From Syntrophaceae bacterium (lineage in GTDB: Bacteria; Desulfobacterota; Syntrophia; Syntrophales; UBA2185): 35,634 nt of DNA. The stretch spans positions 1-35,634 of the forward strand of contig PLMX01000197.1 in the NCBI GenBank assembly GCA_003142635.1, given 5' to 3'. Below are positions 4,959-34,398 of the stretch, piece by piece. Positions within the stretch are counted from its first letter, which is position 1, and every line of letters starts with the position of its first letter. Below the pieces are notes generated by a model. It saw only the letters and a list, made by a program, of their open reading frames with translations. It was not told the origin of the DNA and did not search any database. The position numbers and the translations under genes were made by a program.

Positions 4959-4960
4959 TT

Positions 4961-4978
4961 TATCATCCATGGATGATA
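4961..4978. promoter_or_regulatory. Perfect 18-bp palindrome after the EF-G gene
   Basis: TATCATCCATGGATGATA is a perfect 18-bp palindrome 2 nt after the EF-G stop. As RNA it could fold only as a 7-bp AU-rich stem with a CATG loop and no following U-tract, so an operator-type protein site is at least as likely as a terminator. Confidence 0.35.
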
Positions 4979-5044
4979 TTGTTGAGCATTCCATACCGAG
5001 GGAAACGTAGCTGACCGGGTGCAGCGTAATTATCTGAGCAACAT

Positions 5045-9000: not shown

Positions 9001-9016
9001 TGACAGACGGCATATC

Positions 9017-9051
9017 GTGCCAATGCAGCACGATACGTGCTGTATTGGCAC
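9017..9051. terminator. Strong 16-bp hairpin after the activator gene
   Basis: GTGCCAATGCAGCACG (9017-9032) pairs with CGTGCTGTATTGGCAC (9036-9051) across a 3-nt ATA spacer, 16 pairs with one G-U. It begins 16 nt after the stop at 9000. No T-tract follows, so it could be an RNA stabiliser, a factor-dependent terminator or an operator instead. Confidence 0.5.
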
Positions 9052-9708
9052 AATTACCGAACCATGCGATATCTTAGAATTAGTTCATTTGCGGACAAAT
9101 ATATTGTGCTCTTAGCGCACAAATAATTCCCGGAAATATTAGTCAAATCCTTTCTTCTTAAGATAATCGCTTCATTTCAAAGACAGAGCGGTCCTTACTG
9201 TAATTTGTAAATTATTGATTTATAAAACTTATACTCTTATTGTGATTTCCTCGCTCTAAATTCACACACACAGATTGGCGGCAGCATTAAAGTGGCAGCA
9301 ATTTTGCAGAAGTAAATTACAACTTGAAGAGACCTCTCGAGAACGTAAGAAACCTTTAGGAATAATAGCCGATAGAGCAAAGATGAAAGGTAGATCTCAG
9401 AGGTCTCACGAAAATTTATTACAAATATATATATTAGATGAAAAAGGAGGAAGAACGCAAAGACAAAGATAGAAATCAGGAAGACAAGATCCCAGGCGAG
9501 AGCTCCGATCTCGGCGAATTCGGTACTGAGCATGAGTTTTTTATCACTGATGATGCCAGGGTTAAAGAGGAATTATCGGATGGAGTTGATGCGAGGGAGA
9601 CTGTAAAAATGGCAGACGATAGAGATCAAAGCAAAACATTTTTCCTTCCTGATTTTTTCCCCTGCAAAGATTAGCTCTCCTTGCCTCGTAAAATTCTCTA
9701 AGTTTGAG
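9052..9708. other. Gene-poor AT-rich stretch
   Basis: I find no convincing gene here. A small inverted repeat, TTGTGC (9104-9109) with GCACAA (9117-9122), is visible. A 78-residue plus-strand frame at 9438-9674 is highly charged (starts MKKEEERKDKDRNQEDK) but has no ribosome-binding site and no recognisable domain. The minus-strand hydrophobic frame at 9237-9533 also lacks support. Confidence 0.5.
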
Positions 9709-9748
9709 TCGGTGGATGGTATTCCTTCCCTCCTTTGCCATCCACCGA
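9709..9748. repeat. Perfect 11-bp inverted repeat
   Basis: TCGGTGGATGG (9709-9719) is the exact reverse complement of CCATCCACCGA (9738-9748), with an 18-nt pyrimidine-rich spacer. No T-tract follows on either strand. It directly precedes the response-regulator relic. Role unknown; terminator, operator or mobile-element end are all possible. Confidence 0.45.
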
Positions 9749-9751
9749 TCC

Positions 9752-9847
9752 CCCGGGCAGACAAATGATGAAGGGTCAAAGATTGTCGTCATAGTGGATG
9801 ACACGGCTATGTTCATCCTCTCAGGTGTCCTTCATCCCGATAAATAA
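9752..9847 (+). pseudogene. Possible relic of a response-regulator receiver N-terminus
   Basis: In one plus-strand frame the segment reads SKIVVIVDDTAMFILSGVL then HPDK and a stop. This strongly resembles the first strand and helix of a CheY-like receiver domain (KILIVDD followed by a helix), including the paired acidic residues. There is no in-frame start codon and the frame ends after about 24 recognisable residues, before the phospho-acceptor Asp. It could be a decayed regulator once linked to the upstream activator. The resemblance rests on a short stretch only. Confidence 0.3.
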
Positions 9848-9872
9848 CCTTTGCTCCAATGGACGATTGTAT

Positions 9873-10967
9873 TCAGACATGAAATCGGAAGTAAGCAATA
9901 TCGCCATCGGCTATGATATAATCTCTTCCTTCGATCCTGATCAGTCCTGCTTCCCTCGCTGAAGATAAGCTGCCCGCTCGAATAAAATCGGTGTAGTGTA
10001 TTATATCCGCTTTTATGAACCCCTGCTCCATATCGCTGTGTATCTTCCCCGCAGCTTCCGGCGCTTTCGAACCGCGGGGCACGGTCCAGGCCCGGAGTTC
10101 CGGGCCGACCGTTGTGTAAAAAGTTAGCAATTCCAAGAGAGCGTACCCTGCCCGAATTAGCTTACTAAGGCCCGGCTCCTCTAAGCCCAGACCATTGAGA
10201 AATATCTGTTGCTCGTCCTTAGGAAGTTCTGCTATTTCCGCTTCCAAATCCCCGCAGATGGCGATTGCGTTTGAATCTTCCTTGCGTGCAATCGATTCCA
10301 CTTTCAGGATGTAGTCAGTAGCACCCTTGAGAACAGCCTCGCTGACATTAGAAACATACAGGACCTTCTTTGACGTGAGCAGGTGAAGGTCTCGCACGAT
10401 CATCTGCTCATCTTCCTGGAAGGTCATCTCGCGTGCAACGGTTCCCGTTGAAAGAACATCCTTGACACGGAGACATGTATCTAACTCTTGACGAGGGACC
10501 TTGTCTCCTGTTTTTACGAGCCTTTCGATCTTTGCAATTTTTCTTTCGACGGTCTCCAGATCGGCTATAATCAATTCGGTGTTTATTATCTCTATGTCAC
10601 GTTCAGGATCGACATTGCCATAGATATGGACGACAGACGGATGATCGAAGCATCGTACGATGTGCACGATAGCATCAACTTCCCTGATATGGCCCAAGAA
10701 CTTGTTGCCAAGACCTTCACCTTTGCTTGCACCTTTGACGAGCCCGGCGATGTCAAGGAATTCTATGGTGGCAGGAGTGACTTTCGGAGGCCTGACAATT
10801 TCGGCAATTCTTTGCAGCCGTTCATCCGGAACTTGTACAATCCCGATATTGGGGTCGATGGTGCAGAAGGGATAATTGGCCACTTCTGCTCCTGCGGCGG
10901 TCAAGGCATTGAATATTGTGGATTTCCCAACATTGGGAAGCCCGATAATGCCGCACTTGAAGCCCAC
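9873..10967 (-). CDS. ychF: Ribosome-associated ATPase YchF (Obg family)
   Basis: A 364-residue Obg-family P-loop protein, full length for the family. P-loop GLPNVGKS (9-16); [29 protein letters not shown] covers switch II; the base-recognition motif reads NVSE where the family has NMxE, the Glu being the feature that makes YchF prefer ATP over GTP. A coiled-coil insertion (about 130-200) and a C-terminal TGS domain (about 278-362) complete it. YchF binds the ribosome and influences translation and stress responses. It is the last gene of the minus-strand run, 75 bp after pth, an order common in this lineage. Confidence 0.95.
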
Positions 10968-23770: not shown

Positions 23771-23862
23771 GATTTTTTATGCAGGGGCTCGGATGCACCG
23801 CTAATGGCGATTTCGGGGCTAAAAAGAGCACACTTATGAAAACTCAACGGTAAATTCTTACG

Positions 23863-23986
23863 GTGCGATAACAACCAGCCTGAAGTCGGTTGTAAGTGAC
23901 GAGAGAAAACGAATCCCACTTGGGAAAGGATGAAGACAGAGTCGCCTGGCTGACAACCAGGTAGGTTTGTCTATGAAAAATGATTC
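23863..23986 (+). ncRNA. Structured RNA, possible 5' remnant of a group II intron
   Basis: The plus strand folds into nested helices: ACAACC (23871-23876) with GGTTGT (23888-23893); a CCC-ACTT-GGG tetraloop hairpin (23915-23924); GAATC (23911-23915) or, alternatively, the tetraloop with GATTC (23982-23986) closing AGACA (23934-23938)/TGTCT (23968-23972) and CCTGG (23945-23949)/CCAGG (23957-23961). The segment begins GTGCGATAAC at 23863, like the GUGYG start of bacterial group II introns, and the fold recalls domain I. No domain V and no reverse transcriptase follow, so it would be a truncated remnant. No gene lies in 23658-23991. Confidence 0.35.
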
Positions 23987-23991
23987 GCGCC

Positions 23992-24504
23992 CTAATTAAA
24001 AAATCGGAGCCACGATTTCTTAGCAGGACAGAACGCTTCTATCCATTTAGCAGGAAGTTCATCTGGTCCGTAATATTGCCACTCATTGTTACCAGCAATC
24101 GAGACGCCCATGATGCGACCGGATGCATCACGATCTATAAATCTAAGAAAACGAATGCCCCTGTCAGTACAGTTTACCTCAGTAAAAAATAAGGTCTCTT
24201 TATAATTTTCGTATCCCTTCGTGGATTTGGATGATTTTTCCCTTTCCTTTATTCTGGCTTTTCGAGCTGTTTCCGATCTGGCTACTTTTTTGAGCCACAC
24301 CCTGATTCTATCTTTTGAGGGCTGAGTCACATTTTTCTTATCATAATAAATGTCATAATCTGCATTTTCAAATAAATGGTTTACGTCAAAATGGCCAGAA
24401 TGTAGGAATACCCAATCGCCATTTTCTTCATTATCAGCCTTATGACATCCAAACGTCATCAGGACGATCATTATCATTGCAAGACTACATATAACGTGCT
24501 TCAT
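23992..24504 (-). CDS. Lipoprotein, surface-adhesin-E-like
   Basis: A 170-residue predicted lipoprotein. A lipoprotein signal peptide (MKHVICSLAMIMIVLMTFGC) puts the lipidated residue at Cys20. The mature part resembles the surface-adhesin protein E family: a first strand around DWVFL, YDIYYD, a VWLKKV segment, then VNCTDRGIRFL, the WQYYGP segment and a C-terminal WIEAFC. I chose ATG 24504, with GAGGAG upstream, over the open frame from 24549 because it begins the signal peptide. Family function is not settled; it is probably attached to the outer membrane. Its GC content looks lower than that of the housekeeping genes to the left. Confidence 0.7.
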   Translation of the reverse strand: MKHVICSLAMIMIVLMTFGCHKADNEENGDWVFLHSGHFDVNHLFENADYDIYYDKKNVTQPSKDRIRVWLKKVARSETARKARIKEREKSSKSTKGYENYKETLFFTEVNCTDRGIRFLRFIDRDASGRIMGVSIAGNNEWQYYGPDELPAKWIEAFCPAKKSWLRFFN

Positions 24505-24707
24505 AACAGAACATCCGCTCCTCGCATTTACACATCGATACTCTGCCAACCATTGCGATTCTCTCTGTCATGTTCGCAGCAACAAATATTAGAAAATAAG
24601 AACCTTCCGCATAACAACGTGTTATCATAATATTCGGCAGTTTCGCCCAAATGCTTTAATGTCATAGCAGCCACAGGAAGCCTTCTTTTATAATCTGTAG
24701 ATTTTGT

Positions 24708-24754
24708 CCCCCTCTTTCGGTGCAAGGGCTGATGTCCTTCCGCACAAGAGGGGG
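24708..24754. repeat. Long stem-loop between the two lipoprotein genes
   Basis: CCCCCTCTT (24708-24716) pairs with AAGAGGGGG (24746-24754); inside, GTGC pairs with GCAC and AAGG with CCTT around an 8-9 nt loop. No T-tract follows on either strand. It is the only notable structure in the 24505-24798 gap and could be an RNA end-stabiliser or the end of a lost element. Confidence 0.45.
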
Positions 24755-24798
24755 TAGGGAGCCTACGAAAGATACCTCTTAACGCTGGAAGAGAATTC

Positions 24799-25245
24799 TT
24801 ATCGAATTGTAGTGCAATATTTCAAATTTTTAATCTCAGATGAACCAATTTTTTCTGTAACTCTTGCGATATTGGGAGTCATCACCCACATTCCTAATGA
24901 TGTTCTGCAGTCTATATAATATGTTTTCCCCGCCTCAACATCGAAATAGACATTGCTTCTGGCTTCTGTTTCTGCCCAAAAAAAATGCGCACCCGGTTCG
25001 GCTTCATAGAAGAAGTAACATCCAGATCTGATGGCCCCAATCTTTTTGTCTGAATCCCACATATAATAAAGCGTTTGGCGCCAATCTTCCGTCGCATAAA
25101 AATAAACAATAGCTTTATCTGCAGACGGATTGACATAAACATTGTTAGAGTGAATCTTGAAGTCATCATACCTTGGCATCTCGGCACAGCCAGATACTGA
25201 AACTAAAATGAAAACAATAGCTAAAAGCCGAATGTAAAACATCAT
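24799..25245 (-). CDS. DUF2846-type lipoprotein
   Basis: A 148-residue predicted lipoprotein with a signal peptide whose lipobox ends SVSGC (lipidated Cys20). The mature region matches the DUF2846 pattern: AIVYFYATEDWRQ, KIGAIRSGCYFFYEAEPG, a following HFFWAETEA strand and VEAGKTYYIDC. These proteins are small envelope beta-sandwich lipoproteins of unknown function. GGAGGAG precedes the ATG closely. Confidence 0.75.
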   Translation of the reverse strand: MMFYIRLLAIVFILVSVSGCAEMPRYDDFKIHSNNVYVNPSADKAIVYFYATEDWRQTLYYMWDSDKKIGAIRSGCYFFYEAEPGAHFFWAETEARSNVYFDVEAGKTYYIDCRTSLGMWVMTPNIARVTEKIGSSEIKNLKYCTTIR

Positions 25246-25318
25246 TTTTTATCTCCTCCTTCAAATAACATATAATAAATCTCCATTATGCCTCAAAGAA
25301 GCATTCTCACAAAACACA

Positions 25319-25347
25319 AAACCCCGCACTGTTGAGAAACGGGGTTT
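25319..25347 (-). terminator. Rho-independent-type terminator
   Basis: On the minus strand AAACCCCG (25347-25340) pairs with CGGGGTTT (25326-25319), followed by a T-rich tract (TTTTGTGTTTT). It would end transcripts from the small genes at 25402-26356. Confidence 0.5.
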
Positions 25348-25401
25348 CAGTAATCAGCCCATAAATACCTCGCAAAGGTAAGGGTTATTGCATCGAGTGA
25401 C

Positions 25402-25527
25402 CTAATGCAGTGTCCGCTTGGGAAGAATGCCCTTCCTTTTCAATCGCATCAGAAATGCTTTGCTCAAAGTATCCGCGATTATTTTCAGGCGTCCTTCCTT
25501 GGTTCGTGTCGGGCGGATGGATGCCAT
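25402..25527 (-). CDS. Putative 41-residue basic protein
   Basis: Starts MASIRPTRTKEGRLK and ends RKGILPKRTLH; strongly basic, one likely amphipathic helix, no recognised domain. GAGGAG stands 6 nt before the ATG, and the terminator at 25319-25347 follows. Coding status is uncertain because of its length. Confidence 0.4.
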   Translation of the reverse strand: MASIRPTRTKEGRLKIIADTLSKAFLMRLKRKGILPKRTLH

Positions 25528-25574
25528 GCTCTGCTCCTCGAAGCTACATCAGAAAGGCCGTCTGCTCACGTTTT

Positions 25575-25763
25575 TTAAAATAGATTGATTGTCCATTTTG
25601 CAATGTAGAATAGAATGGTTAGCGTAATAGTTGTAACGATTGCTTCAATGATAAAAATTCGTATGCTGAAAGTCAGCTTTTTTTCGGCATGACCGACATT
25701 CGTATAGAATTGACGACCGAGTGAAACTAAAATTGCAATGGCAATTATCCAGAAGATTGCCAT
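25575..25763 (-). CDS. Small membrane protein
   Basis: A 62-residue protein with two predicted membrane helices (about 2-18 and 34-58) joined by a polar loop (RQFYTNVGHAEKKL). A good ribosome-binding site (TAGGAGG) precedes the ATG. No family recognised. Confidence 0.6.
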   Translation of the reverse strand: MAIFWIIAIAILVSLGRQFYTNVGHAEKKLTFSIRIFIIEAIVTTITLTILFYIAKWTINLF

Positions 25764-25903
25764 ATTCTTTGACCTCCTATGATTTCTTGCGCGACTGTTA
25801 TTTTGAAGCGTGTTTTGGGCTTATTTCTTTGGTTTCTTGTCCTGCTTCTTGAGACCCTTGGAATGTTATTCATCGGGGCGTTTGTTTAAAAACCTGCCTC
25901 TAT

Positions 25904-26161
25904 CTACTGGGGCTCAATATCACTAAGCTTGCGAATCTTGTTTCTGAGTTCATCCGTCTTTTTTTTGTGGTCTTTCTTAATGTCAGATATTTCCTTATTC
26001 TGAGCCTCTTTCAAAGTATCAAGTTCAGACTGAAGACTGTTTTGCTCATTTTCAGAGTTCTTCAACCGAGAGGAAAGATCCCTACACTTAAGAACCAACC
26101 CAAGCGCGAGGCAGGTTAAGCTGACAATCAATGTCCATATTGCATACTCGGGCATGAGCAT
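25904..26161 (-). CDS. Small membrane-anchored coiled-coil protein
   Basis: An 85-residue protein with one N-terminal membrane segment (about 7-25) followed by a long charged coiled coil (SSRLKNSENEQNSLQSEL and onward). The start is uncertain (Met1 or Met3) and no clear ribosome-binding site is seen. Topology resembles phage spanin-type or division-associated small proteins, but nothing identifies a function. Confidence 0.5.
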   Translation of the reverse strand: MLMPEYAIWTLIVSLTCLALGLVLKCRDLSSRLKNSENEQNSLQSELDTLKEAQNKEISDIKKDHKKKTDELRNKIRKLSDIEPQ

Positions 26162-26212
26162 ATCGTCAACCAGGCATATAAATGAAAACTAAAAAACAGG
26201 TAAATAATATTT

Positions 26213-26356
26213 TCACGTTTTCTTTTTTTCGTACTTTTTCAAGGGGTCTTTAATAGCTTCTTCTAAGAGGTCGTTTTGGCGCTTGTCAGTCTCGATGGAA
26301 AGACATCTCGATGATGGTGTTTTTGTTTTGCATTTCTTACGTTCTCTTTTCCACAT
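26213..26356 (-). CDS. Putative 47-residue basic protein
   Basis: Starts MWKRERKKCKTKTPSSR and ends KDPLKKYEKKKT; very rich in Lys, no recognised domain, no strong ribosome-binding site. It lies just outside the integrated element. Weakly supported. Confidence 0.3.
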   Translation of the reverse strand: MWKRERKKCKTKTPSSRCLSIETDKRQNDLLEEAIKDPLKKYEKKKT

Positions 26357-26444
26357 ATCTTTACTTTATCATGTATTTACAACAACTTCAAATCTAAAAT
26401 AAACAATGGTTGACAATCAATCAGGATATTTCTTATTGAAATTA

Positions 26445-26490
26445 TGGCGGGCGATCCGGGACTTGAACCCGGGGCCTCTGGTTCCGGAGA
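26445..26490. repeat. Left attachment repeat (displaced 3' half of tRNA-Arg)
   Basis: 46 bp, 43 identical to 34322-34367, from the encoded CCA end to the anticodon loop. The three differences are at 26459, 26462 and 26469 (all C or G here, A or T in the tRNA). Two of them are the partners of a single T-stem pair (G-C here, A-T in the tRNA), so the pairing is kept. This is the expected remnant of the original tRNA 3' end. Confidence 0.88.
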
Positions 26491-26597
26491 GGGTTCAAGG
26501 AGGGTAGAGCAAGAAGTTGAAATTGTGCAAGTAATTGATTTTTCAGAAAGCAGGTTGTATAAACAGCTTACAGTAAATACGGTAAAAAAAAGGAAAG

Positions 26598-26614
26598 TGT
26601 CACATTTTGTCACA
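26598..26614. promoter_or_regulatory. Left arm-type site pair, TGTCACA-N3-TGTCACA
   Basis: TGTCACA at 26598-26604 and 26608-26614, one helical turn apart. An identical arrangement occurs inside the right end (34248-34264). Their location about 110 bp inside the attachment repeat suggests integrase or excisionase arm sites. Confidence 0.5.
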
Positions 26615-26638
26615 ATCCGGGGATAGCGATTCGAACTG

Positions 26639-26669
26639 GGGGTTACGGTTTACGCCGTGACCCCTTTTT
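26639..26669 (+). terminator. Rho-independent terminator reading rightwards from the element's left end
   Basis: GGGGTTACGG (26639-26648) pairs with CCGTGACCCC (26655-26664), ten pairs including one G-U, with a TTTACG loop and then TTTTTCTT. It would block plus-strand transcription entering from the chromosome. The last codons and the stop of the minus-strand gene at 26643 lie inside it. Confidence 0.7.
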
Positions 26670-27380
26670 CTTGGATTGCGGATGTTCTCTCTTCCTATTG
26701 TGTTGACTTGTAAGGTCGTGGTTTGATGTTTTCCTCCGGTTCCAAGACCAATAGAGGTTGGTACAGTGGGTAGAGCACCGGGCCTTAGTTTTATTCTTAG
26801 TGCGGTCCACAAACCATTTTCCGCAAACGCTACACTTCTTAAGCCTTCCTAAATCTATATTTTGAGAATAGCACTCCCAGAGTAAAAAAAGAATTTTCTG
26901 ACTTTTAGTTATGAACCGGGACCGTTCAGGGTCGGAAATCAATTTTTTTTGTAGCTCTGGATTATCTTTGAGGAGTATTTCAAAGATGGGTAATGGTAGA
27001 GTGGTTGCTTGAATTTCAATGTTTCCTGTAATTCTACGTCCTTCAAATCTCATCAAAAAAGGAAGATGTGTTGCAATATCATTGAAACGGAAAAGGGGCG
27101 TCCTTGGCGCGGGCTCAAATCTCGTTTGTATTATTTCATCTCTCAGTTCAACCCAATCTGTTCTAGATAAGGGTTTGCTGAGCAGCTCTTCAAGACCTAT
27201 GACTAATGGATAAGCGGGATCGCTAGGCGGGGTATTATTCAGAGTAAAAACGAAAAAATCTAATTTGCGCCACTTGTCCCTGTAAAGGAAGAGCTGCGAA
27301 ATATCAGAATAGGTTGGATCTTCACCTACAAGTTGAAAAATTTTTTCTCTCTCTTTTTTAGTTAGTTCGTATTGTCTCAT
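26643..27380 (-). CDS. CGNR-like zinc-finger protein
   Basis: A 245-residue protein whose C-terminal part carries a four-cysteine finger: Cys183, Cys186, Cys202 and Cys206 in CSVCGKWFVDRTKN and RCSTHC. This matches the CGNR finger of predicted stress-type regulators (C-x2-C-x-x-FVD-x-(S/T)-x-N), except that the final CGNR is replaced by CTNLYW. Residues 1-160 would be the ligand or ABATE-like domain, and a basic tail follows. It is probably a DNA-binding regulator. AGGGG stands 6 nt before the ATG. The gene is divergent from the excisionase operon, with an inverted-repeat operator between them, as expected for a switch gene or for a cargo regulator. Confidence 0.65.
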   Translation of the reverse strand: MRQYELTKKEREKIFQLVGEDPTYSDISQLFLYRDKWRKLDFFVFTLNNTPPSDPAYPLVIGLEELLSKPLSRTDWVELRDEIIQTRFEPAPRTPLFRFNDIATHLPFLMRFEGRRITGNIEIQATTLPLPIFEILLKDNPELQKKLISDPERSRFITKSQKILFLLWECYSQNIDLGRLKKCSVCGKWFVDRTKNKTKARCSTHCTNLYWSWNRRKTSNHDLTSQHNRKREHPQSKKKGSRRKP

Positions 27381-27418
27381 ATCAATCCCCTACTAGCTTT
27401 CAGCGTTATCTTTGATGA

Positions 27419-27466
27419 CATACAAGGTATAGCGATTTGACTTTGTATGGCATTATGAAGTATTGT
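27419..27466 (+). promoter_or_regulatory. Operator-promoter between the CGNR gene and the excisionase operon
   Basis: TTGACT (27437-27442) and TATTGT (27461-27466) with an 18-bp spacer form a plausible promoter for the rightward operon. An inverted repeat, CATACAA (27419-27425) and TTGTATG (27443-27449), overlaps it and is suited to repressor binding. Confidence 0.45.
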
Positions 27467-27501
27467 TTCATAAAAAGCAAGGAATATTAAGAGGGGTTGA
27501 T

Positions 27502-27681
27502 ATGGAAAGGTTATTGAACGTTAAACAGGCGGGGGAAAAACTTTCTATCAGTGTCTACACCATCCGGGCGTGGGTTGCTGAAAGACGACTTCCACACGTC
27601 CGGTTAGGGCGTCGAGTAGCTTTTCGCCCAGAAGACCTTGAGGCATTCGTCAAAACCAATACCGTCGCGGCCCGAAAATAA
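27502..27681 (+). CDS. Excisionase-family helix-turn-helix protein
   Basis: A 59-residue MerR-like HTH of the excisionase DNA-binding family: MERLLNVKQAGEKL, SVYTIRAWVAERRLPHVRLG and RRVAFRPEDLEAFV form the recognition helix and wing. Such proteins bend DNA at attachment sites or act as small regulators. ATG 27502 has GGGG 5 nt upstream; the open frame from 27463 adds 13 residues that do not belong to the family. It is the first gene of the replication operon. It may be the true excisionase, with the HTH at 30068 acting as an AlpA-type regulator, or the reverse. Confidence 0.75.
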   Translation: MERLLNVKQAGEKLSISVYTIRAWVAERRLPHVRLGRRVAFRPEDLEAFVKTNTVAARK

Positions 27682-27729
27682 GGATTCAAATCATCCACGG
27701 CTTTTTTTACGATATTGGAGAGAAAAGAA

Positions 27730-27987
27730 ATGAAAACAAAAGTTACAGAAAAGATGATTCCTGTCCATGATCCGCACCTAGTCGCATTTCTTCTACTGCG
27801 AAGTTTCATTCCAAAACTCACAATACTGAACGGCCGCATCACCTGGAGTTATGAGGACCCGACGGTCAGCGAGGCTATTCAGGATTTTTATGGTGGGCAG
27901 CGCGTCACGGCCATTGACTTTGTGGAGGCTTTGAAAAAAGTCAAAAGTCAGATGTATGGCGCGAAGAGCATGGGGGCGGGCCGATGA
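27730..27987 (+). CDS. DUF5659-like small protein
   Basis: An 85-residue protein: a variable start, then VHDPHLVAFLLLRSFIP, a beta region (ITWSYED) and a helix YGGQRVTAIDFVEALKKVKSQM. The pattern resembles DUF5659 proteins common in phages and satellites next to replication genes. GGAGAGAA precedes the ATG; the TTG at 27715 is part of that site. It overlaps the replication gene by 4 bases (ATGA), so the two are translationally coupled. Function unknown. Confidence 0.6.
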   Translation: MKTKVTEKMIPVHDPHLVAFLLLRSFIPKLTILNGRITWSYEDPTVSEAIQDFYGGQRVTAIDFVEALKKVKSQMYGAKSMGAGR

Positions 27988-29669
27988 CTAGTGACCTTCA
28001 CCCTGACCATCGACGGGACCTTGAAAAATCCGGGCTATCCCCCGAGACGATAAAAGGCGCTGGCGTCTACTCTGTCCCGCCGGATCAGATAAAGAAGATC
28101 ATGGGATGGGATGCGCCGGTTAATTCCCTGCTTGCTTTCCCCTACCACGGAACGGATTTTATCCGATATAAATTATTCCCGCCATTGACTGACAAGAACG
28201 GCAAGGATCAAAAATATTATCAACAGCGAGGCTCCGGGATTCGTTTATACAGGCCGGTCGGATTTGATGACAAGGCCGCTGTAATTCGATTTACTGAAGG
28301 TGAAAAGAAGGCTCTAAAAGGCACGCAGGAAGAGCTCAATGTGTGTGCCCTGGGTGGGGTCTGGAATTTCGGAACGAAAGATGACAACGGCCAGGCGTGG
28401 CTCATTGAAGACTTTGACCAAATTGAATTAAACGGGCGGATCGTTGAGATTGTCCCGGATGCTGACTTCCGCATAAAGGAATCAGTCGCACACGCTGTTT
28501 ACAGATTCGGGACCCTTCTTGAGAGCAAGGGCGCAACGGTCAAGGTTGTGTGTCTCCCCGGCGTGATGAAGCTGGACGGCTACCTTGTAAAATACAGCAC
28601 AGAAGATTTCCTCAAGCTCCCGCGTATTACTATTGATGATCCCTTTTTCCGGCCTTCTATCGTTAGGGAAAAGGGTCTTGCCTATGCGATAGGTCAATCA
28701 GTCCTCAGCATACAATCGCTCTTGAAGAAAAAGATCGAACCCCGGCCCTTCTACCTTTGGCCCTGGCTGCGTGCGGGTACGCTTGCCATGATTTACTCAA
28801 CGAGGGGATACGGGAAAACCTTCCTCTCGCTTGTCATATCCCTGGCGCTCACCCGGAAGCTGTCAATAGGAAATTGGCGCACCGATAAAATTGTGGGTGT
28901 TCTTTATGTAGATGGGGAAATGCCTCTTGAGGACGTAAAAGACCGGGCGGACCTTCTGATAAAAGGGTTATCGCCTGAGCTCGCACCATTTCATATTTTA
29001 TCGGCAGCAGCTATGCAGGCGGACGGATGGCCTACTCCTAACCTGACAAACGTGAGATGGCGCGAGGCCCTTTCGCAGTATCTTACCGAATGCGGAATAT
29101 ATCATGTGCTGATTCTCGATAACATTGCATCGCTGACGCCTGGGGTCCCGGAAGGTAAAAAAGAAGATTGGGACGAAGTCAACCAGTGGCTGCTATCGCT
29201 GCGCTTTATGGGCCTGGCTGTCATTCTGATTCATCACGCTGGCAAGAGCGGAGATCAGCGAGGGACGAGCGGAAGGGAAGATGCTCTTGACGTTACGATA
29301 AAGCTCACACGCCCGGCGGGATACAGGCCAGAGGATGGCTGCGTCTTTGATGTGGAATTTAGTAAAGCACGCGGCGTTTATGGAAGCGGCGCCGCGTCTT
29401 TCAATTTCCGGATTGTCCAGAATGGAGAGGGCGGCCTGTCCTGGACTACCGACGCCGTAGGATCGGACAGCAAGGGGAAAATTGTTGCCTTAATAGGTAA
29501 CGGGATAGCTCAGAAGGATATATCCGCTCTCCTGGGTTGCTCTAAGGCATGGGTGAGCAGGTGCAAGAGCAAGGCCGTGAAAGATGGATACCTCTCAAAG
29601 AGCGGAGAACTTACACCGGAAGGGAAAATTTATTGTGAGGAAATTGACGTTGATGAACTGCTTGTTTGA
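27984..29669 (+). CDS. Replication protein: toprim-like domain plus RepA-type RecA-fold helicase
   Basis: A 561-residue two-domain protein. The N-terminal half (about 40-215) resembles the DUF3854/toprim primase fold: TEGEKKA (about 103-109) supplies the Glu and PDADF (Asp159, Asp161) the DxD metal site. The second half is a RepA/AAA_25 ATPase: Walker A STRGYGKT (272-279), with Ser in place of the first Gly; Walker B VLILDNIA (about 374-381); and the HHAGKSGDQRGTSGRED sensor segment. The C-terminal 70 residues contain a helix-turn-helix (GIAQKDISALLGCSKAWVSR). Primase-helicase fusions of this kind start replication of phages, plasmids and satellites. The iteron-like array begins 18 bp after its stop, so this is the likely initiator for that origin. 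Confidence 0.78.
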   Translation: MTSDLHPDHRRDLEKSGLSPETIKGAGVYSVPPDQIKKIMGWDAPVNSLLAFPYHGTDFIRYKLFPPLTDKNGKDQKYYQQRGSGIRLYRPVGFDDKAAVIRFTEGEKKALKGTQEELNVCALGGVWNFGTKDDNGQAWLIEDFDQIELNGRIVEIVPDADFRIKESVAHAVYRFGTLLESKGATVKVVCLPGVMKLDGYLVKYSTEDFLKLPRITIDDPFFRPSIVREKGLAYAIGQSVLSIQSLLKKKIEPRPFYLWPWLRAGTLAMIYSTRGYGKTFLSLVISLALTRKLSIGNWRTDKIVGVLYVDGEMPLEDVKDRADLLIKGLSPELAPFHILSAAAMQADGWPTPNLTNVRWREALSQYLTECGIYHVLILDNIASLTPGVPEGKKEDWDEVNQWLLSLRFMGLAVILIHHAGKSGDQRGTSGREDALDVTIKLTRPAGYRPEDGCVFDVEFSKARGVYGSGAASFNFRIVQNGEGGLSWTTDAVGSDSKGKIVALIGNGIAQKDISALLGCSKAWVSRCKSKAVKDGYLSKSGELTPEGKIYCEEIDVDELLV

Positions 29670-29686
29670 CAAAATCGTTGACCGCC

Positions 29687-29878
29687 GGTTTACCAGTACA
29701 AATGTACCCTTTGTACTTGGTAAACTTCCGGTTGTTTACTGTTACAGTTTACTGGTTAACCAAGTCTATCTTGTTGAATTAATAAGATTATTGAAAGGCA
29801 GTTTACTAAGGCAGTTTACTGGTAAACCAGTTTACTACCCAAGTGCCAGTTTACTACCCATTTTTTACTGGTAAACTG
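29687..29878. repeat. Iteron-like array, candidate replication origin or operator
   Basis: Ten GTTTAC cores in 190 bp. Seven read on the plus strand, at 29688, 29734, 29747, 29801, 29814, 29830 and 29849, the last six as GTTTACT and five of them as CAGTTTACT. Three are inverted, as GTAAAC at 29720, 29822 and 29871. Two copies meet as the palindrome GTTTAC-TG-GTAAAC (29814-29827). No ORF covers it. The array lies directly after the replication protein gene, which is typical of iteron origins; multiple repressor sites would look similar. Confidence 0.7.
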
Positions 29879-29880
29879 AG

Positions 29881-30067
29881 TTCAGGGGGCATCGTGAAGA
29901 AGTCCAGAAGAGAGAAAAAGGTTCCTCATGTAAGCCCCGTTAACTCGTTTAAAAAACTTGCGCACCGAGACAGCGGGTAGTAGAAAAACGCCCCGAGCGT
30001 CGCCAGGGGGGGCAAGGGGGGCCGGACAGGAGTCCCTTAATGGCCCCGTACTTTTAGGAGTGAGAGG
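29881..30067 (+). other. Leader with long G-runs before the AlpA-like gene
   Basis: Between the iteron array and the HTH gene. It holds two long G-runs, G7 (30006-30012) and G6 (30016-30021) separated by CAA, with quadruplex potential, and a 28-codon frame starting GTG at 29892 that is too short to call. No clear promoter is visible. Confidence 0.35.
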
Positions 30068-30292
30068 ATGGAAGGAACGCAGCACATAGAAGTTGATCCA
30101 TTGTTAGACGCGAAGCAGGTCAAGCAGCTTCTGAGATGCAGCCTTCCGTTTGTGTATAAGCTGGCAGAGAGGGGGCAGATCGCTTGCATCCGCATACCGT
30201 GTCAAACCTTAGGGACCAGGAGGAAGGAGCTCGTAAGGTTCAAGCATGAAGATGTGACTCGTTTTATTGAGGCCCATTACCGGAGGGTATGA
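30068..30292 (+). CDS. AlpA-like helix-turn-helix protein
   Basis: A 74-residue winged HTH: LLDAKQVKQLLRCSLPFVYKL, then LAERGQIACIRIP and the wing RFKHEDVTRFIEAHY. This is the AlpA/excisionase fold found in P4-like and PICI-like satellites, where AlpA switches on integrase and excision functions. GGAG stands 9 nt before the ATG. It follows the iteron-like array and could regulate from, or bind, it. Confidence 0.7.
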   Translation: MEGTQHIEVDPLLDAKQVKQLLRCSLPFVYKLAERGQIACIRIPCQTLGTRRKELVRFKHEDVTRFIEAHYRRV

Positions 30293-30359
30293 CCTCTGGT
30301 TATGACATCAGGGTACGTGACGAATAGTTCAATAATATCAAGGCATAAAAAACAGCGTG

Positions 30360-30436
30360 TGACATGAAGTGTCAATTAATCGGGTTGAGGGAAACAAGGC
30401 TCGTTAGCAAAGTTCTCAAGAGGGGAGGTTGAGAAC
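30360..30436 (+). promoter_or_regulatory. Inverted repeats in the leader of the terminase-small-like operon
   Basis: TGACA-N5-TGTCA (30360-30374) is a palindrome suited to a dimeric repressor. Further on, GTTCTCAA (30412-30419) pairs with TTGAGAAC (30429-30436) around a GAGGGGAGG loop, 52 nt before the start of the operon's first gene. Confidence 0.4.
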
Positions 30437-30488
30437 CCTCAGAGGGTCAACAAGGGGTAACGTTAATAAATGTAGGAGGGGAACACAG

Positions 30489-31082
30489 ATGGAGAAAGAA
30501 AGTGTAGACAGAAACCAGCGGATACTTCAACTTCGCCGGGAGGGAAAGAGCATCCGGCAGATCGGGAAGGAAGTGGACTTGTCGGGTCCACGGGTACACA
30601 AGATTTTGAAGAGGATGCTGCCCAGGCCGGAGAGCATGGAGAGGTTGACCAAGAAGGAGCAAAATTTTGTACTTGCAGTAATCGAGGGGAAGACGCCGAC
30701 AAATGCAGTACTCGAAAGCCATGATGTAAATTCAAGAGAGAGCGCTAAGGCCCTGCAGAAGACCCTTTTGAAGAAGGATGACATTAAACTTGCCATCTCG
30801 GAGTATCTACAGATTTACGGCTTAACCAAGGGCTACAGGGTGAAGAAGCTGAAATCGCACGTTGATAATCGTGACCCAATTATTTCTCTTCGGGCCCTGG
30901 ACCAAAGCTGGCGCCTGGATTCTTATCCTGCAAGCAATGTGAATATCGTTAGTGTGAATATTACACCCGTCGATCTAAGCCGGTATCTCAACAAAGGGCC
31001 AAAGACAGAGACCGCAGCGGAAGAAGTCATTGACATAACGCCCACAAAAAATGAAGACGAAGAAAAACATAAGGAGGATTGA
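30489..31082 (+). CDS. HTH protein with terminase-small-subunit-like region
   Basis: A 197-residue protein. Residues 6-40 form a resolvase-type helix-turn-helix (RILQLRREGKSIRQIGKEVD). Residues 50-130 (LTKKEQNFVLAVIEGKTP, then NAVLESHDVNSRESAKALQ and a helix ending with ISEYLQ) resemble small terminase subunits of the phBC6A51 type, whose hallmark is LTxKQxxFVxxxxxG followed by AA-type helices. Its 60-residue tail is acidic. Small terminase subunits recognise the pac or cos site; in PICI satellites a private copy redirects packaging. It stands apart from any large subunit. AGGAGGGG precedes the ATG at 30489. Alternatively it is simply a DNA-binding regulator, since the resemblance was judged by eye. 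Confidence 0.45.
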   Translation: MEKESVDRNQRILQLRREGKSIRQIGKEVDLSGPRVHKILKRMLPRPESMERLTKKEQNFVLAVIEGKTPTNAVLESHDVNSRESAKALQKTLLKKDDIKLAISEYLQIYGLTKGYRVKKLKSHVDNRDPIISLRALDQSWRLDSYPASNVNIVSVNITPVDLSRYLNKGPKTETAAEEVIDITPTKNEDEEKHKED

Positions 31083-31084
31083 AC

Positions 31085-31483
31085 ATGGAAGAAGAAGCAA
31101 GACACCTAATCGACCCAGAAGTATCGGCTAGCACCAAAGGTTATACCCCTTTGAGAATGCCCCGGCCCCCACAACCCAGAGTAAGCTCCACCGGCGTGGA
31201 TACGGTCTTTGTGCGCGATCTCCCGCGATTCCTACTGGACCGATTCCGCTCGACATTAAAATGGGAAGGCCCCCGGCGCTTACATGAGAGCATGCGCTAT
31301 TACGTGGAGCTCCTGGGTGAGGCCCGCGTCCTTGACGCTCGGACCGCGCGGAATCTGGAGGCCCAAGCAAGGAGCATAGAGGAAAACCCTGGGGAAGCAG
31401 GCGAATTTTTAAAGAGTGAAATTGAACCATATCTAAAAGAACTCGAGGCGACGGCCCGGGGAGAGGGGGAAAACGATGGATGA
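31085..31483 (+). CDS. Unknown protein of the terminase-small-like operon
   Basis: A 132-residue soluble protein with a Pro-rich, flexible N-terminus (about 1-40) and helices after residue 55 (SMRYYVELLGEARVL and EAQARSIEENPG). No domain recognised. GGAGG lies 7 nt before ATG 31085; it starts 2 bases after the preceding stop and overlaps the next gene by 8 bases. Confidence 0.6.
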   Translation: MEEEARHLIDPEVSASTKGYTPLRMPRPPQPRVSSTGVDTVFVRDLPRFLLDRFRSTLKWEGPRRLHESMRYYVELLGEARVLDARTARNLEAQARSIEENPGEAGEFLKSEIEPYLKELEATARGEGENDG

Positions 31484-32075
31484 CACGATTTTTGACAAAA
31501 ACATAAGAGCCATAATGAAGTTGGTTGGAGATCTTCGGGAGGCGCACCGGGTGTCTCTCTTTGACAAAACCGCAGCCGCACAAGAGCCTCTCACAAAAGA
31601 GTTAGCGGCAAAGGAAGCCGAGGCCCTTGAGCTGGCCGAGTTATATGAGAAAACAAAACCCGTGGCGGAAGCAAAGATCAGGCTATTACAACATGATGCA
31701 GACGTAGCCATAGTGAAGGGTGATGAGGCTAAGGCCATTCGTCTTCGTCAAGAGGCAGAGGCCGTCAAGAAAGACCTCGCCGCAATCAAAGAGCGCGAAC
31801 AAAAGTGCTATATTCAAGAGCTGACTAAATTTAAGTTGCGGGGGGCCGCCGGAGAGATTTACGAGGCCGTCTATCCGGGAATTAGAAAATCCCTGATTGA
31901 CATTCAAAAGCTACTCGTCGAACTGCTTGATGGCACAGTAACCCTGCTCGAATCCTTCAACCAGGCCCACAACCTTCATGGGAGAGTTGACCCCAACGAC
32001 TTGACCCCACAAGAATACGGCGTAGAGGAGCCGGTCTGGCGATCCCTCTGGATGTGGTACTCCGGGCGGAAATGA
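31476..32075 (+). CDS. Long coiled-coil protein, unknown
   Basis: A 199-residue protein, helical and Ala/Glu/Lys-rich from about residue 30 to 110 (ELAAKEAEALELAELYEK and following), suggesting a coiled coil, followed by a compact C-terminal part with a Trp-rich end (WRSLWMWYSGRK). It overlaps the upstream gene by 8 bases. Coiled-coil proteins in this place could act as scaffold or size-control proteins of a satellite, but no motif shows it. Confidence 0.6.
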   Translation: MDDTIFDKNIRAIMKLVGDLREAHRVSLFDKTAAAQEPLTKELAAKEAEALELAELYEKTKPVAEAKIRLLQHDADVAIVKGDEAKAIRLRQEAEAVKKDLAAIKEREQKCYIQELTKFKLRGAAGEIYEAVYPGIRKSLIDIQKLLVELLDGTVTLLESFNQAHNLHGRVDPNDLTPQEYGVEEPVWRSLWMWYSGRK

Positions 32076-32166
32076 TTTGTTACCCGGGGTTTCTCAGTAT
32101 CGCATGACGGCAAAGATACCAGAGATAATGCGTAGGACGCATTTTTAAGGGGCTTTATGACCGGCA

Positions 32167-32361
32167 ATGAAGAATTCTATCATGCTGCCCTGCCCGATCT
32201 GTGGCGAGCCCTTTAAAAAGGCCAGGCCGTGGCAAAAAGTATGCTCCCCTGTGTGCCGTCGCAAGAAGTGGCAGATCAAAATGTTTTCGGATATGGTCAA
32301 GCAGATCGCCGACAATATGATTTCCGATTTTGCCCGTAAGGTGAAGGCTAAAGAGAGTTAA
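32167..32361 (+). CDS. Small zinc-ribbon protein
   Basis: A 64-residue protein with Cys9, Cys12, Cys26 and Cys30 (CPICGEPFKKARPWQKVCSP then VC), a likely single Zn site, and a basic helix behind it. The C-x2-C...C-x3-C layout parallels that of the protein at 26643. Probably nucleic-acid-binding. The ribosome-binding site is weak. Confidence 0.55.
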   Translation: MKNSIMLPCPICGEPFKKARPWQKVCSPVCRRKKWQIKMFSDMVKQIADNMISDFARKVKAKES

Positions 32362-32367
32362 AAAAAT

Positions 32368-32423
32368 GGGAATTATATATTTGCGTAAACCAACGTAATG
32401 GGTTACTTATGTATATAATTCCC
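32368..32423. repeat. 56-bp palindromic element, copy 1
   Basis: Arms GGGAATTATATA (32368-32379) and TATATAATTCCC (32412-32423) are perfect 12-bp inverted repeats; inside, GTAAACC pairs imperfectly with GGGTTAC around AACGTAAT. Copy 2 (32854-32909) is 53/56 identical. Confidence 0.85.
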
Positions 32424-32463
32424 ATAATTTAAGATTCAAGTGAATCTTTGGCAGGAGGTGAAT

Positions 32464-32853
32464 ATGAAAAAACTTTTCCTTCTAATCTTTATCGTGCTTC
32501 TGTTCCCTTCCACATCATTTTGCGGGGGTTTTACTTCTTACGATTTTTTTGGACCCACAAGCTGTCACTTTGTCACTGATCCGCTGTTTTCCAGGGACAG
32601 GATCGCCCAGGAAGAATTTCTACCTAAGTGCATTAATGATTTGATTAGGGGAATAGAGGAAACGCGTGAGAAAACCTCGGAGGACAGTAAACTCTTGCCC
32701 CTAAGAATCGACACGCTTCAGGAGTCGCAGCATTTCCTGGAAGATAAATTGAAAGACGCGGAATTAGAAATAGAATCGCTCACAAGAAGAATCAACATGC
32801 TCGGAGATGAAGTTAGGTTTCTCAAACAAAAAGCAATGAGAAAGAATAAATAA
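32464..32853 (+). CDS. Secreted coiled-coil protein bracketed by twin palindromes
   Basis: A 129-residue protein with a clean Sec signal peptide (MKKLFLLIFIVLLFPSTSFC), a short region with two further Cys, and a long C-terminal coiled coil (TREKTSEDSKLLPL; SLTRRINMLGDEVRFLKQ). GGAGG lies 5 nt before ATG 32464. The gene sits exactly between the two 56-bp palindromes, and the second starts at the base after its stop. It is probably a cargo gene acting in the periplasm or at the cell surface. No family recognised. Confidence 0.72.
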   Translation: MKKLFLLIFIVLLFPSTSFCGGFTSYDFFGPTSCHFVTDPLFSRDRIAQEEFLPKCINDLIRGIEETREKTSEDSKLLPLRIDTLQESQHFLEDKLKDAELEIESLTRRINMLGDEVRFLKQKAMRKNK

Positions 32854-32909
32854 GGGAATTATATATTTGCGTGACCCAACGTAATGGGTTACTCATGTAT
32901 ATAATTCCC
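32854..32909. repeat. 56-bp palindromic element, copy 2
   Basis: Same 12-bp arms as copy 1 (32854-32865 and 32898-32909), with inner stem GTGACCC/GGGTTAC. It differs from copy 1 at three positions, all in the inner part. Confidence 0.85.
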
Positions 32910-32933
32910 TAAAAAAATATTTCATTTTTCCCC

Positions 32934-32968
32934 TTGACAATGGTGTAAACATGGTTTATATGAGAGTT
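32934..32968 (+). promoter_or_regulatory. Promoter and self-operator of the Xre repressor
   Basis: TTGACA (32934-32939, 6/6) and TATATG (32957-32962, 4/6) with a 17-bp spacer predict a start at 32969. The palindrome TAAAC-ATG-GTTTA (32946-32958) spans spacer and -10, suited to autorepression, and its half-site GTTTA is the core of the iteron array. Confidence 0.6.
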
Positions 32969-33154
32969 ATGAAGAGCTGGACAGGTGACCAAATAAAGAG
33001 ATTTAGAAAGCGCCTTAACATGACACAGGTTGAGTTTGCTGCCATGACGGGTGTGTCCAGGGTTTTCATAAACTATCTTGAAAGGGGGCTGAGAAATCCG
33101 AACAAGACCATGAAGCTATTGTTGACTTGTCTTGAAAAGCAGAAAAGGAAATGA
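32969..33154 (+). CDS. Xre/Cro-type repressor, probably translated from a leaderless mRNA
   Basis: A 61-residue helix-turn-helix protein: QIKRFRKRLNMTQVEFAAMT, then GVSRVFINYLERGLRNPNKTM. This is a minimal lambda-Cro/Xre fold with no C-terminal domain. The open frame begins at 32951, but the promoter predicts transcription from 32969, exactly the first base of an in-frame ATG, so I take that as the start, without a ribosome-binding site (compare lambda cI from PRM). It lies 15 bp before the integrase gene and is probably co-transcribed. It could be the element's master repressor. Confidence 0.7.
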   Translation: MKSWTGDQIKRFRKRLNMTQVEFAAMTGVSRVFINYLERGLRNPNKTMKLLLTCLEKQKRK

Positions 33155-33169
33155 AAGGGGGAAAGTGAA

Positions 33170-34288
33170 ATGGCAGTAAGAAAACGCGGTAGCACCTGGC
33201 AGATTGATTATATCGATCCTGCTGGGAAGCGGATCCGGAAATCCTTCAAGAAAAAGAAAGACGCCGATGCCGAGCTCGGGAAGCGTGTCTCTCTTATCGC
33301 TGAGGGCCGGTATCTCGACGTTAAGAAGGATTGTAAAACGACAATGGGTGAGCTGCTTGATCGCTATGAGGAAAACTTCAAGGATCAACGGAGCTTCTTT
33401 AGCTGGAAATCATTATGCGTAAAGAAGTTCAAGGAGTATTTCGGAGAGAAATCCCTGCTAAGTCAGATCAGATTCGTTGATATTGAAACCTACAGAAACC
33501 GCCTGAGACAGACTCCGGTGAGAGGCAAGGCTCAAAAGGTGCGTAGTGTAGCAAGTGTAAACCGGGAAATGGCAGTCATGCATCACGTCTTTCAAAAAGG
33601 TGTCGAATGGGAGATGATCGAGAAAAGCCCCTTTGAACGTGGCAAGGGTATCTTCTCTAAAGAGAATAACACACGGACGCGGTATTTGACGCATGAGGAA
33701 ATCTCAAGGCTCCTGAGTAGCTCCCCGGATCACTTGAAGGATATCATCGTTTGTGCCGTGCATACCGGAATGAGGAAATCGGAAATTCTCTCGTTGAAGT
33801 GGTCACAGATCAAGGGCGGTTTCATATACCTGACGAGGACGAAGACGGACGAATCCCGGCAAGTGCCTGTCAGTGACGAATTGAAAAAGCTGTTTGATGA
33901 TGTGCGCCGAAAGCAGGGCGGAAAATCAGATTATGTTTTCCGGTATGAGAGACCTTCAAAGAAAGAGGAAGGGCACAAGGTCGTTAAGTTGGTTGTGGAC
34001 AATAATCCGATATTGGACGTTAAGCATTCATTCACAAGTGCCGTGAAGAAAGCCGGTATTGAGGATTTCAGGTTTCACGATTTGCGTCATACGTGCGCAA
34101 GCCATTTAGTGATGAACGGAGCAAGCCTCAAGGACGTGCAGGAGATCCTGGGCCATAAGGATATGACCATGACCCTGAGATATGCTCATCTTTCACAGGA
34201 GCACAAAAAGAAAGCGGTCAATCTTCTGAATGGACTGACCGCCAGCGTGTCACAAAATGTCACAAATGCCGCTTTTGACCTGCCTTGA
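33170..34288 (+). CDS. Tyrosine-type site-specific integrase
   Basis: A 372-residue phage-type recombinase. The N-terminal arm-binding domain (about 1-58), SAM-like core-binding domain (about 60-160) and catalytic domain follow in order. Catalytic residues: Arg202 in HTGMRKSEIL, Lys225 in TKTD, His303 and Arg306 in HDLRH, His329 in GHKD and nucleophile Tyr338 in RYAHLS. It integrates and excises the element at the tRNA-Arg site, which begins 34 bp after its stop. Its last codons contain the right-arm TGTCACA pair. GGGGGAAAGTG precedes the ATG. Confidence 0.95.
   Translation: MAVRKRGSTWQIDYIDPAGKRIRKSFKKKKDADAELGKRVSLIAEGRYLDVKKDCKTTMGELLDRYEENFKDQRSFFSWKSLCVKKFKEYFGEKSLLSQIRFVDIETYRNRLRQTPVRGKAQKVRSVASVNREMAVMHHVFQKGVEWEMIEKSPFERGKGIFSKENNTRTRYLTHEEISRLLSSSPDHLKDIIVCAVHTGMRKSEILSLKWSQIKGGFIYLTRTKTDESRQVPVSDELKKLFDDVRRKQGGKSDYVFRYERPSKKEEGHKVVKLVVDNNPILDVKHSFTSAVKKAGIEDFRFHDLRHTCASHLVMNGASLKDVQEILGHKDMTMTLRYAHLSQEHKKKAVNLLNGLTASVSQNVTNAAFDLP
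34248..34264. promoter_or_regulatory. Right arm-type site pair, TGTCACA-N3-TGTCACA
   Basis: TGTCACA at 34248-34254 and 34258-34264, the same 10-bp period as the left pair (26598-26614), inside the end of the integrase gene and about 60 bp from the attachment repeat. Confidence 0.5.
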
Positions 34289-34321
34289 CTGTCTCTAATG
34301 CTCACTAAGTAGTTGATATCT

Positions 34322-34367
34322 TGGCGGGCGATCCGAGATTTGAACTCGGGGCCTCTGGTTCCGGAGA
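34322..34367. repeat. Right attachment repeat inside tRNA-Arg
   Basis: The tRNA's 3' half, matching 26445-26490 (43/46). The uninterrupted 21-bp block nearest the 5' half (34347-34367, over the variable loop, anticodon stem and loop) is the probable exchange region. Confidence 0.88.
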
Positions 34368-34398
34368 CCAGCGCTCTATCCAACTGAGCTAATCGCCC
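34322..34398 (-). tRNA. tRNA-Arg (anticodon CCG), integration site
   Basis: A complete 77-nt tRNA on the minus strand with encoded CCA: acceptor GGGCGAT/ATCGCCC, anticodon stem CTGGT/ACCAG around CTCCGGA (anticodon CCG), T-arm CCGAG-TTCAAAT-CTCGG. Because the element is inserted at its 3' side, bases 34322 to about 34367 come from the element and the 5' half from the host. Confidence 0.95.

Follow-up and report, generated by a model that had tools for sequence, protein, structure and literature searches.

What is the 7,877-bp island that lies inside the tRNA-Arg(CCG) gene of a Syntrophaceae bacterium (order Syntrophales, phylum Thermodesulfobacteriota; contig PLMX01000197.1), and which kind of mobile element does it represent? 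The first-pass annotation of this DNA had proposed a phage satellite, and the present analysis supports that proposal. The island is most probably an intact-looking PICI-like phage satellite of an undescribed family, with its own small terminase subunit (TerS) that would redirect the packaging motor of a helper phage. Support comes from the insertion site, the empty site in a sister species, the gene content, the homology of TerS, and the recurrence of the element in relatives. For the genes that had been left without a function, no homologs among structural, plasmid-transfer, or conjugation genes were found. All positions below refer to the window, which is the whole stretch of 35,634 bp that was analyzed.

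Insertion site

The tRNA-Arg(CCG) gene occupies positions 34322 to 34398 on the minus strand and was predicted by both ARAGORN and Rfam (Rfam tRNA score, 69 bits). Two direct repeats of 55 nt with 89% identity, at 26436 to 26490 and 34313 to 34367, are spaced by exactly 7,877 bp, which is the element size given in the first-pass annotation. The longest exact core of these repeats is 21 bp long (CGGGGCCTCTGGTTCCGGAGA; 26470 to 26490 and 34347 to 34367) and falls in the anticodon-stem part of the tRNA, and strand exchange must have occurred within this core. In a sister species (G001, contig L111), both flanks of the island join at a single tRNA with 85 to 96% DNA identity; the left flank aligns through window position 26490 to L111 position 16138, and the right flank aligns from window position 34322 to L111 position 16093, with an overlap of 46 bp. 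The tRNA-Arg site is thus empty there, which implies that the insertion took place after the two species split or that the element was precisely lost.

The left attachment site, attL (26445 to 26490, minus strand), is the displaced original 3' end of tRNA-Arg(CCG), and 46 of its 46 bases are identical to the empty-site tRNA of G001. The right site, attR, forms part of the reconstituted tRNA gene (34322 to 34398, minus strand), whose 3' part comes from the element and differs from the empty site by three substitutions. These are base changes in the T arm, and two of them are compensatory halves of one T-stem pair, so that T-stem pairing, as judged by eye, is kept. Since attL equals the empty-site tRNA and attR differs from it, the element supplied its own 3' tRNA end and moved the original end to the far side.

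Integration, regulation, and replication genes

The integrase that had been annotated is a 372-aa tyrosine integrase (33170 to 34288, plus strand), which matches XerA/XerD profiles with E values of 1e-26 to 5e-22 and is 63% identical to the integrase of a related island, L026. The earlier description of excisionase-like HTH proteins holds for two short proteins. One is an HTH_17/AlpA-type excisionase-regulator (27502 to 27681, plus strand; HTH_17, E of 3.7e-12; PHROG 66 "excisionase," E of 1.1e-9), and the other is a second HTH_17 excisionase-regulator (30068 to 30292, plus strand; HTH_17, E of 5.1e-8), which is 61% identical to the protein in the same place in L026. The description fails for the HTH protein beside the integrase (32951 to 33154, plus strand), which is a cI/antitoxin-type regulator (PHROG 2104, E of 6.5e-11). 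Its gene lies directly upstream of int, and a cI-like gene likewise precedes int in L025, L056, L064, L089, and L090. The cI-like, integrase, primase, and TerS genes are all on the plus strand, and the minus strand carries only the gene for a CGNR-like protein.

The replication protein is a 561-aa primase-helicase (27984 to 29669, plus strand) with matches to the AAA_25 (E of 3.4e-22) and DUF3854 (E of 1.5e-10) profiles and a C-terminal HTH, in agreement with its earlier annotation. Directly 5' of it lies the gene for an 85-aa DUF5659-like protein (27730 to 27987, plus strand; PF18903 above the cut-off), homologs of which immediately precede the replication genes in L025, L056, and L088 and lie near them in L090. 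After the primase-helicase gene, an intergenic, origin-like iteron array (29688 to 29880) is built of (A)GTTTACT/GGTAAAC units. This array, also noticed before, is real: 10 GTTTAC/GTAAAC sites occur in 206 bp, versus a maximum of 3 in 5,000 shuffles, and 25 occur in the whole window. In the window island, L025, L026, L017, L023, L090, and L055, no other part of equal size in the element contains a 7-mer as highly repeated as that in the stretch just past the primase or replication gene, and the repeated motif differs from element to element; the 7-mer counts of L025, L023, and L055 do not exceed their shuffle maximum, and L088 has no top-repetitive stretch behind its replication gene.

A predicted small terminase encoded by the island

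The gene at 30489 to 31082 (plus strand) encodes a 197-aa protein with an N-terminal HTH and a Terminase_2-like domain (PHROG 51 terS, E of 1.4e-5), which had been listed as a possible small terminase. Profile and fold similarity now support its prediction as a small terminase subunit. In an alignment of twelve homologs, all from Syntrophales genomes, 12 of 12 members match two small-terminase families, PHROG 51 (best E, 1e-12) and PHROG 641 (best E, 9e-9); the same alignment is too diverse for pattern scans. The AlphaFold2 model of TerS is confident over residues 11 to 110 (block means, 80 to 94). When BFVD was searched with Foldseek, the two best matches and many further named ones were terminase small subunits (E of 1e-3 to 0.05; probability of ~1.0); their whole-chain TM-scores are low, as the C terminus of TerS is disordered.

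Queried singly, TerS matches Pfam Terminase_2 with an E value of 0.065. The PDB fold search with TerS alone returned insignificant matches only, among them the NV1 small terminase (E of 1.2), and sequence profiles found no TerS relative with a solved structure. The weak matches of TerS alone to Terminase_2 and NV1, like the nondivergent position of the regulator, count against a PICI-like reading.

These genes could also belong to a self-replicating integrative island, either integrated-plasmid-like or mobilizable by conjugation, in which the TerS-like protein would bind DNA as a regulator and take no part in packaging. A primase-helicase of its own and iterons are plasmid-like features, and the TerS family has a generic HTH that also matches sigma- and transposase-type HTHs. 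Such an origin is nevertheless unlikely, as the Pfam, PHROG, and NCBIfam scans of the island found no transfer gene and no relaxase, the mark of an integrative mobilizable element. The similarity of the 12-member TerS family to terminase profiles extends past the HTH, and sister elements pair the gene in the TerS position with a large terminase (TerL) gene (L026, L066, and L074) or have a DNA-ejection protein (L059).

Accessory genes and missing functions

In the putative satellite, TerS is followed by two overlapping orphan genes that may be cotranslated. The first encodes a 132-aa protein (p134; 31085 to 31483, plus strand), which adjoins TerS and has no match in Pfam, PHROGs, or PADLOC, and the second encodes a 199-aa all-helical protein (p199; 31476 to 32075, plus strand), which has no homolog in phage records. 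A single-sequence AF2 model of p199 contains two long antiparallel helices (block-mean pLDDT of 84 to 93 for residues 51 to 110); p199 appears scaffold-like, and a role as a scaffold or in capsid size would be compatible with these helices. Equating p199 with the helical protein beside the TerS-position gene in L074 was rejected, since the two show no similarity.

The only minus-strand gene (26643 to 27380) encodes a 245-aa putative accessory or cargo protein with a CGNR-like zinc-finger C terminus (zf-CGNR, E of 0.0039, below the Pfam cut-off). It has no homolog in phage records, and its matches among 155 Syntrophales genomes are short and weak, so that, like p134 and p199, it has no informative homologs; this leaves some of the gene content without an explanation, a further point against a PICI-like reading. 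A 64-aa zinc-finger/HNH-like protein (32167 to 32361, plus strand) matches PHROG 1271 HNH (E of 6e-5) in the zinc-binding part only. The next gene (32464 to 32853, plus strand) encodes a 129-aa exported coiled-coil protein with a signal-peptide-like N terminus, as judged by eye, and no convincing family match; it may be a cargo or envelope protein. This gene is bracketed by two 62-bp palindromic repeats (32362 to 32423 and 32848 to 32909) that are 92% identical (fold z, -5.5 and -7.7) and have no further copy in 149 genomes; an integron attC-like nature was weighed by eye and dropped.

As annotated before, no structural, lysis, or large-terminase gene was found in the island by the Pfam, PHROGs, and NCBIfam scans, and Pfam and PHROGs revealed no capsid, portal, or connector gene. 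No recognizable anti-phage system is present, unlike in some related islands. A defense role for the island's own orphans was considered and found no support in PADLOC, the sole match (LmuB, E of 0.007) being located in a coiled coil. The host assembly, which is 95% complete, contains no convincing large terminase; the weak matches in it were rejected as RecD/PhoH-type ATPases.

Related islands in two phyla

Related elements in other tRNA genes, which the first-pass annotation had proposed searching for, were found in several other combinations of site and host. Six more islands, 7.7 to 11.0 kb in length and with an attachment repeat at either end, are present in Syntrophales, a Geobacteraceae, and a Nitrospira, and each has an integrase, replication genes, and either TerS or a terminase pair. 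Those in Syntrophales are L025 (8,518 bp; tRNA-Arg ACG), L026 (11,029 bp; tRNA-Lys CTT), L055 (10,548 bp; tRNA-Gly CCC), and L060 (10,181 bp; tRNA-Leu TAA). L055 spans metK, and part of it may therefore be host or cargo DNA. The others are L088 in a Nitrospira MAG (10,868 bp; tRNA-Leu TAG) and L090 in a Geobacteraceae MAG (7,733 bp; tRNA-Gly CCC). In addition, L089 (Nitrospirae, tRNA-Lys) has TerS, HTH_17, cI-like, and integrase genes. The order DUF5659-like, primase/helicase, TerS, cI-like, and int is common to the window island, L025, L056, and L090 (in which the primase role was assigned by profile only) and is partly kept in L089. In the closest of the islands, the tRNA comes next after int.

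Among Syntrophales genomes, the island's own included, strong relatives of the integrase family occur in 10 of 155, TerS family relatives also occur in 10 of 155, and primase relatives occur in 13 of 149. In the TerS tree, the window protein groups with members from Nitrospirota, Geobacteraceae, and L054/L055 (99/98), whereas in the integrase tree it groups with L026, L064, L066, and L074 (99/100); these different partners indicate that modules have been exchanged. The gene set, i.e., an integrase, a cI-like HTH protein, TerS, and a DUF5659-like protein/primase at a tRNA, provides a search model for satellites in anaerobic and mostly uncultured bacteria.

The recurrence of this gene set also bears on whether the island is a degenerate temperate prophage, stripped of structural genes but still with those for lysogeny, replication, and terS. 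Integrase, cI-like, primase, and terS genes are prophage genes too, and a host genome with no convincing large terminase would fit such decay. The core genes, however, have intact reading frames, and the same compact gene set, 7.7 to 11 kb long, recurs in several tRNAs and two phyla. None of 50,697 phage records contained a phage with this TerS, and a scan of viral contigs with close TerS members gave no match, which together make a decayed prophage quite improbable. The primase likewise has no close match in the phage records and no close relatives in the scans of viral contigs and genome contigs.

Comparison with known phage satellites

Phage satellites are described as att-flanked elements of 7 to 20 kb that have int and regulatory/replication genes and are without viral structural genes (PMC13376191). 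The putative satellite agrees with this description in its length of 7,877 bp, its att pair and empty site, and its gene scans. Satellites are also carried and spread in the particles of a helper phage, as is proposed below for the island. The literature consulted describes phage satellites for the most part in Gammaproteobacteria, Firmicutes, Actinobacteria, and marine groups, and full-text literature searches found none from Desulfobacterota or Nitrospirota, although absence from these searches is not proof.

PICIs (SaPIs and Gram-negative PICIs) are typically about 15 kb long and have divergent stl/xis genes, with int on the repressor side and xis-pri-ori on the other (PMC6092414). The island resembles them in being integrated, in its int, its xis/AlpA-like HTH gene, and its primase-helicase followed by ori, in the private terS that is optional in PICIs, and in its lack of structural and lysis genes (PMC6092414). 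It differs in size, the relatives also being only 7.7 to 11.0 kb long, and in layout, since almost every gene has the same orientation and a cI-like regulator immediately precedes int, in place of the divergent stl and xis of PICIs (PMC6092414). Its DUF3854-AAA_25 replicase and the hosts, Thermodesulfobacteriota and Nitrospirota, are further differences from PICIs. PICMIs are likewise small satellites with int, an HTH_17/AlpA-like gene, and a primase, but they are fis adjacent and have a DUF3987/DUF5906 primase, whereas the island lies in a tRNA, has a DUF3854 and AAA_25 primase, and contains terS (PMC10803314). cfPICIs encode capsid, portal, connectors, and TerS/TerL (PMC10690885); of this capsid and packaging set, the island has TerS only, and some relatives are more similar to cfPICIs in having a TerS-position gene with TerL (L026, L066, and L074) or an HK97-type capsid (L020). 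Because it lacks defining features of PICIs, PICMIs, and cfPICIs, the island is set apart from all three. The PHROG scan of the island gave no match to P4 marker genes (sid, psu, delta, and others). VEIMEs and tycheposons (named in PMC11389934 and PMC10803314) are likewise environmental integrating islands that are thought to be borne by phage virions, a likeness of description alone.

Proposed life cycle and packaging variants

For a PICI-like satellite of this composition, we infer that regulation, excision, replication, helper dependence, and packaging would proceed as follows. The cI-like protein, as its position before int suggests, would keep the island silent until a helper arrives. For excision, the integrase would act together with one of the HTH_17 proteins as the excisionase and recombine the ends of the island within the anticodon-stem region of tRNA-Arg(CCG). 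The island would then be replicated, as a circle or concatemer, by its primase-helicase, which would work from the iteron array. The private TerS may divert the TerL motor and procapsids of the infecting helper onto the satellite genome, perhaps with the assistance of the two orphans behind TerS. As no convincing large terminase is encoded in the host genome, the helper, if any, would be an incoming phage, as with satellites of virulent phages.

Packaging genes vary among the relatives. L026 and L074 encode an HTH protein in the TerS position, which has no convincing TerS profile match, together with a large terminase (PHROG 2, E of 1e-25 and 1e-28, respectively), and they have a 219- to 228-aa protein in common; L066 has a gpA-type large terminase plus the same partner gene. 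The L074 contig, which is listed as viral by IMG/VR, holds a related island end with the TerS-position gene and TerL. L059 contains a DNA ejection family match (PHROG 26400, E of 2e-7) behind TerS, and in L020 an HK97-type capsid gene (Pfam, 9e-78) lies close to a related primase. In our estimate, there is an even chance that the islands of Thermodesulfobacteriota and Nitrospirota belong to a single satellite lineage that crosses phyla, in which the integration and replication core is fixed and the packaging module can be swapped, the latter consisting of TerS alone, TerS and TerL, TerS and a DNA-ejection protein, or a capsid gene. If so, a graded series from TerS-hijacking PICIs to capsid-forming PICIs would exist within one family. 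Comparing the different packaging genes offers a way to test how helper dependence evolved.

Cargo genes differ as well. In the primase set, L019 carries a type I restriction-modification system and Septu PtuA/PtuB, and L022 carries a DNA methyltransferase; L019, L020, and L022 have a related primase without this TerS family and are thus more distant. The anti-phage systems of some related islands would suit a satellite that is now defective and retained merely as a defense or cargo island, but this is highly improbable for the window island, which has no such system, whose int, primase, and terS genes are open and similar to those of relatives, and whose empty site in the sister species implies insertion after the split or precise loss. 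As a family of PICI-like satellites, these islands suggest that syntroph-type hosts carry phage parasites and, in some relatives, anti-phage cargo. In the TerS set, L053 carries a DUF6036 nucleotidyltransferase as cargo.

Satellite-like islands with terminase or capsid genes

The host genome (G000) may carry a second phage satellite besides the window island, because a replication gene related to the primase-helicase of that island lies together with a terminase small subunit (TerS) gene at another locus (L029, contig C56, 1306-5080). The replication gene, which has a DUF3854-type N-terminus, is related to the window protein at 40%, and behind it lies a small-subunit gene with a clear match to Terminase_2 (Pfam, 5e-20). 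The Syntrophaceae relative G110 contains three TerS-family islands (L054, L055, and L058), each on a separate contig, and the TerS sequences of two of them are near-identical. In a further island, L053, an IS21-type transposase/helper pair (3694-5986) lies just upstream of TerS and may have severed the replication part of the island.

Three tRNA-adjacent islands with integrases of the same family as that of the window island, L026 (12129-14857), L074 (1061-3733; a contig listed as viral in IMG/VR), and L066 (4377-7125), carry an HTH/TerS-position gene and a large terminase gene, which are accompanied by a conserved partner protein of 211 to 228 aa. In the TerS-bearing island L059 (4489-8226), TerS is followed by a DNA-ejection-like protein and a second large protein. 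In L020, an HK97-type major capsid gene (8843-10027) lies within a few genes of a related primase, and an integrase is also present; no further recognized structural gene was noticed in its vicinity, and L020 is possibly a capsid-forming satellite. The related integrase/primase island L019 (5882-13948) carries a type I restriction-modification operon as cargo, within which a Septu pair (PtuA/PtuB) is inserted.

Palindromic repeats and insertion site of the window island

In the window island, the gene for the exported coiled-coil protein (32464-32853, plus strand, 129 aa) is flanked on both sides by strongly palindromic 62-bp repeats (32362-32423 and 32848-32909) that are 92% identical. Further copies were found neither in the host's own genome nor in 148 relatives, and in its placement around the gene the pair resembles the ends of a small cassette. 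The surroundings of tRNA-Arg(CCG) are variable: in the sister genome G002 (L113, 2392-3420), both the 3' end of the tRNA gene and the DNA behind it differ, and the DNA to the left of attL (window 23785-26436) is not constant among the sister genomes. By this comparison, the tRNA-Arg(CCG) gene appears to be a hotspot for insertions.
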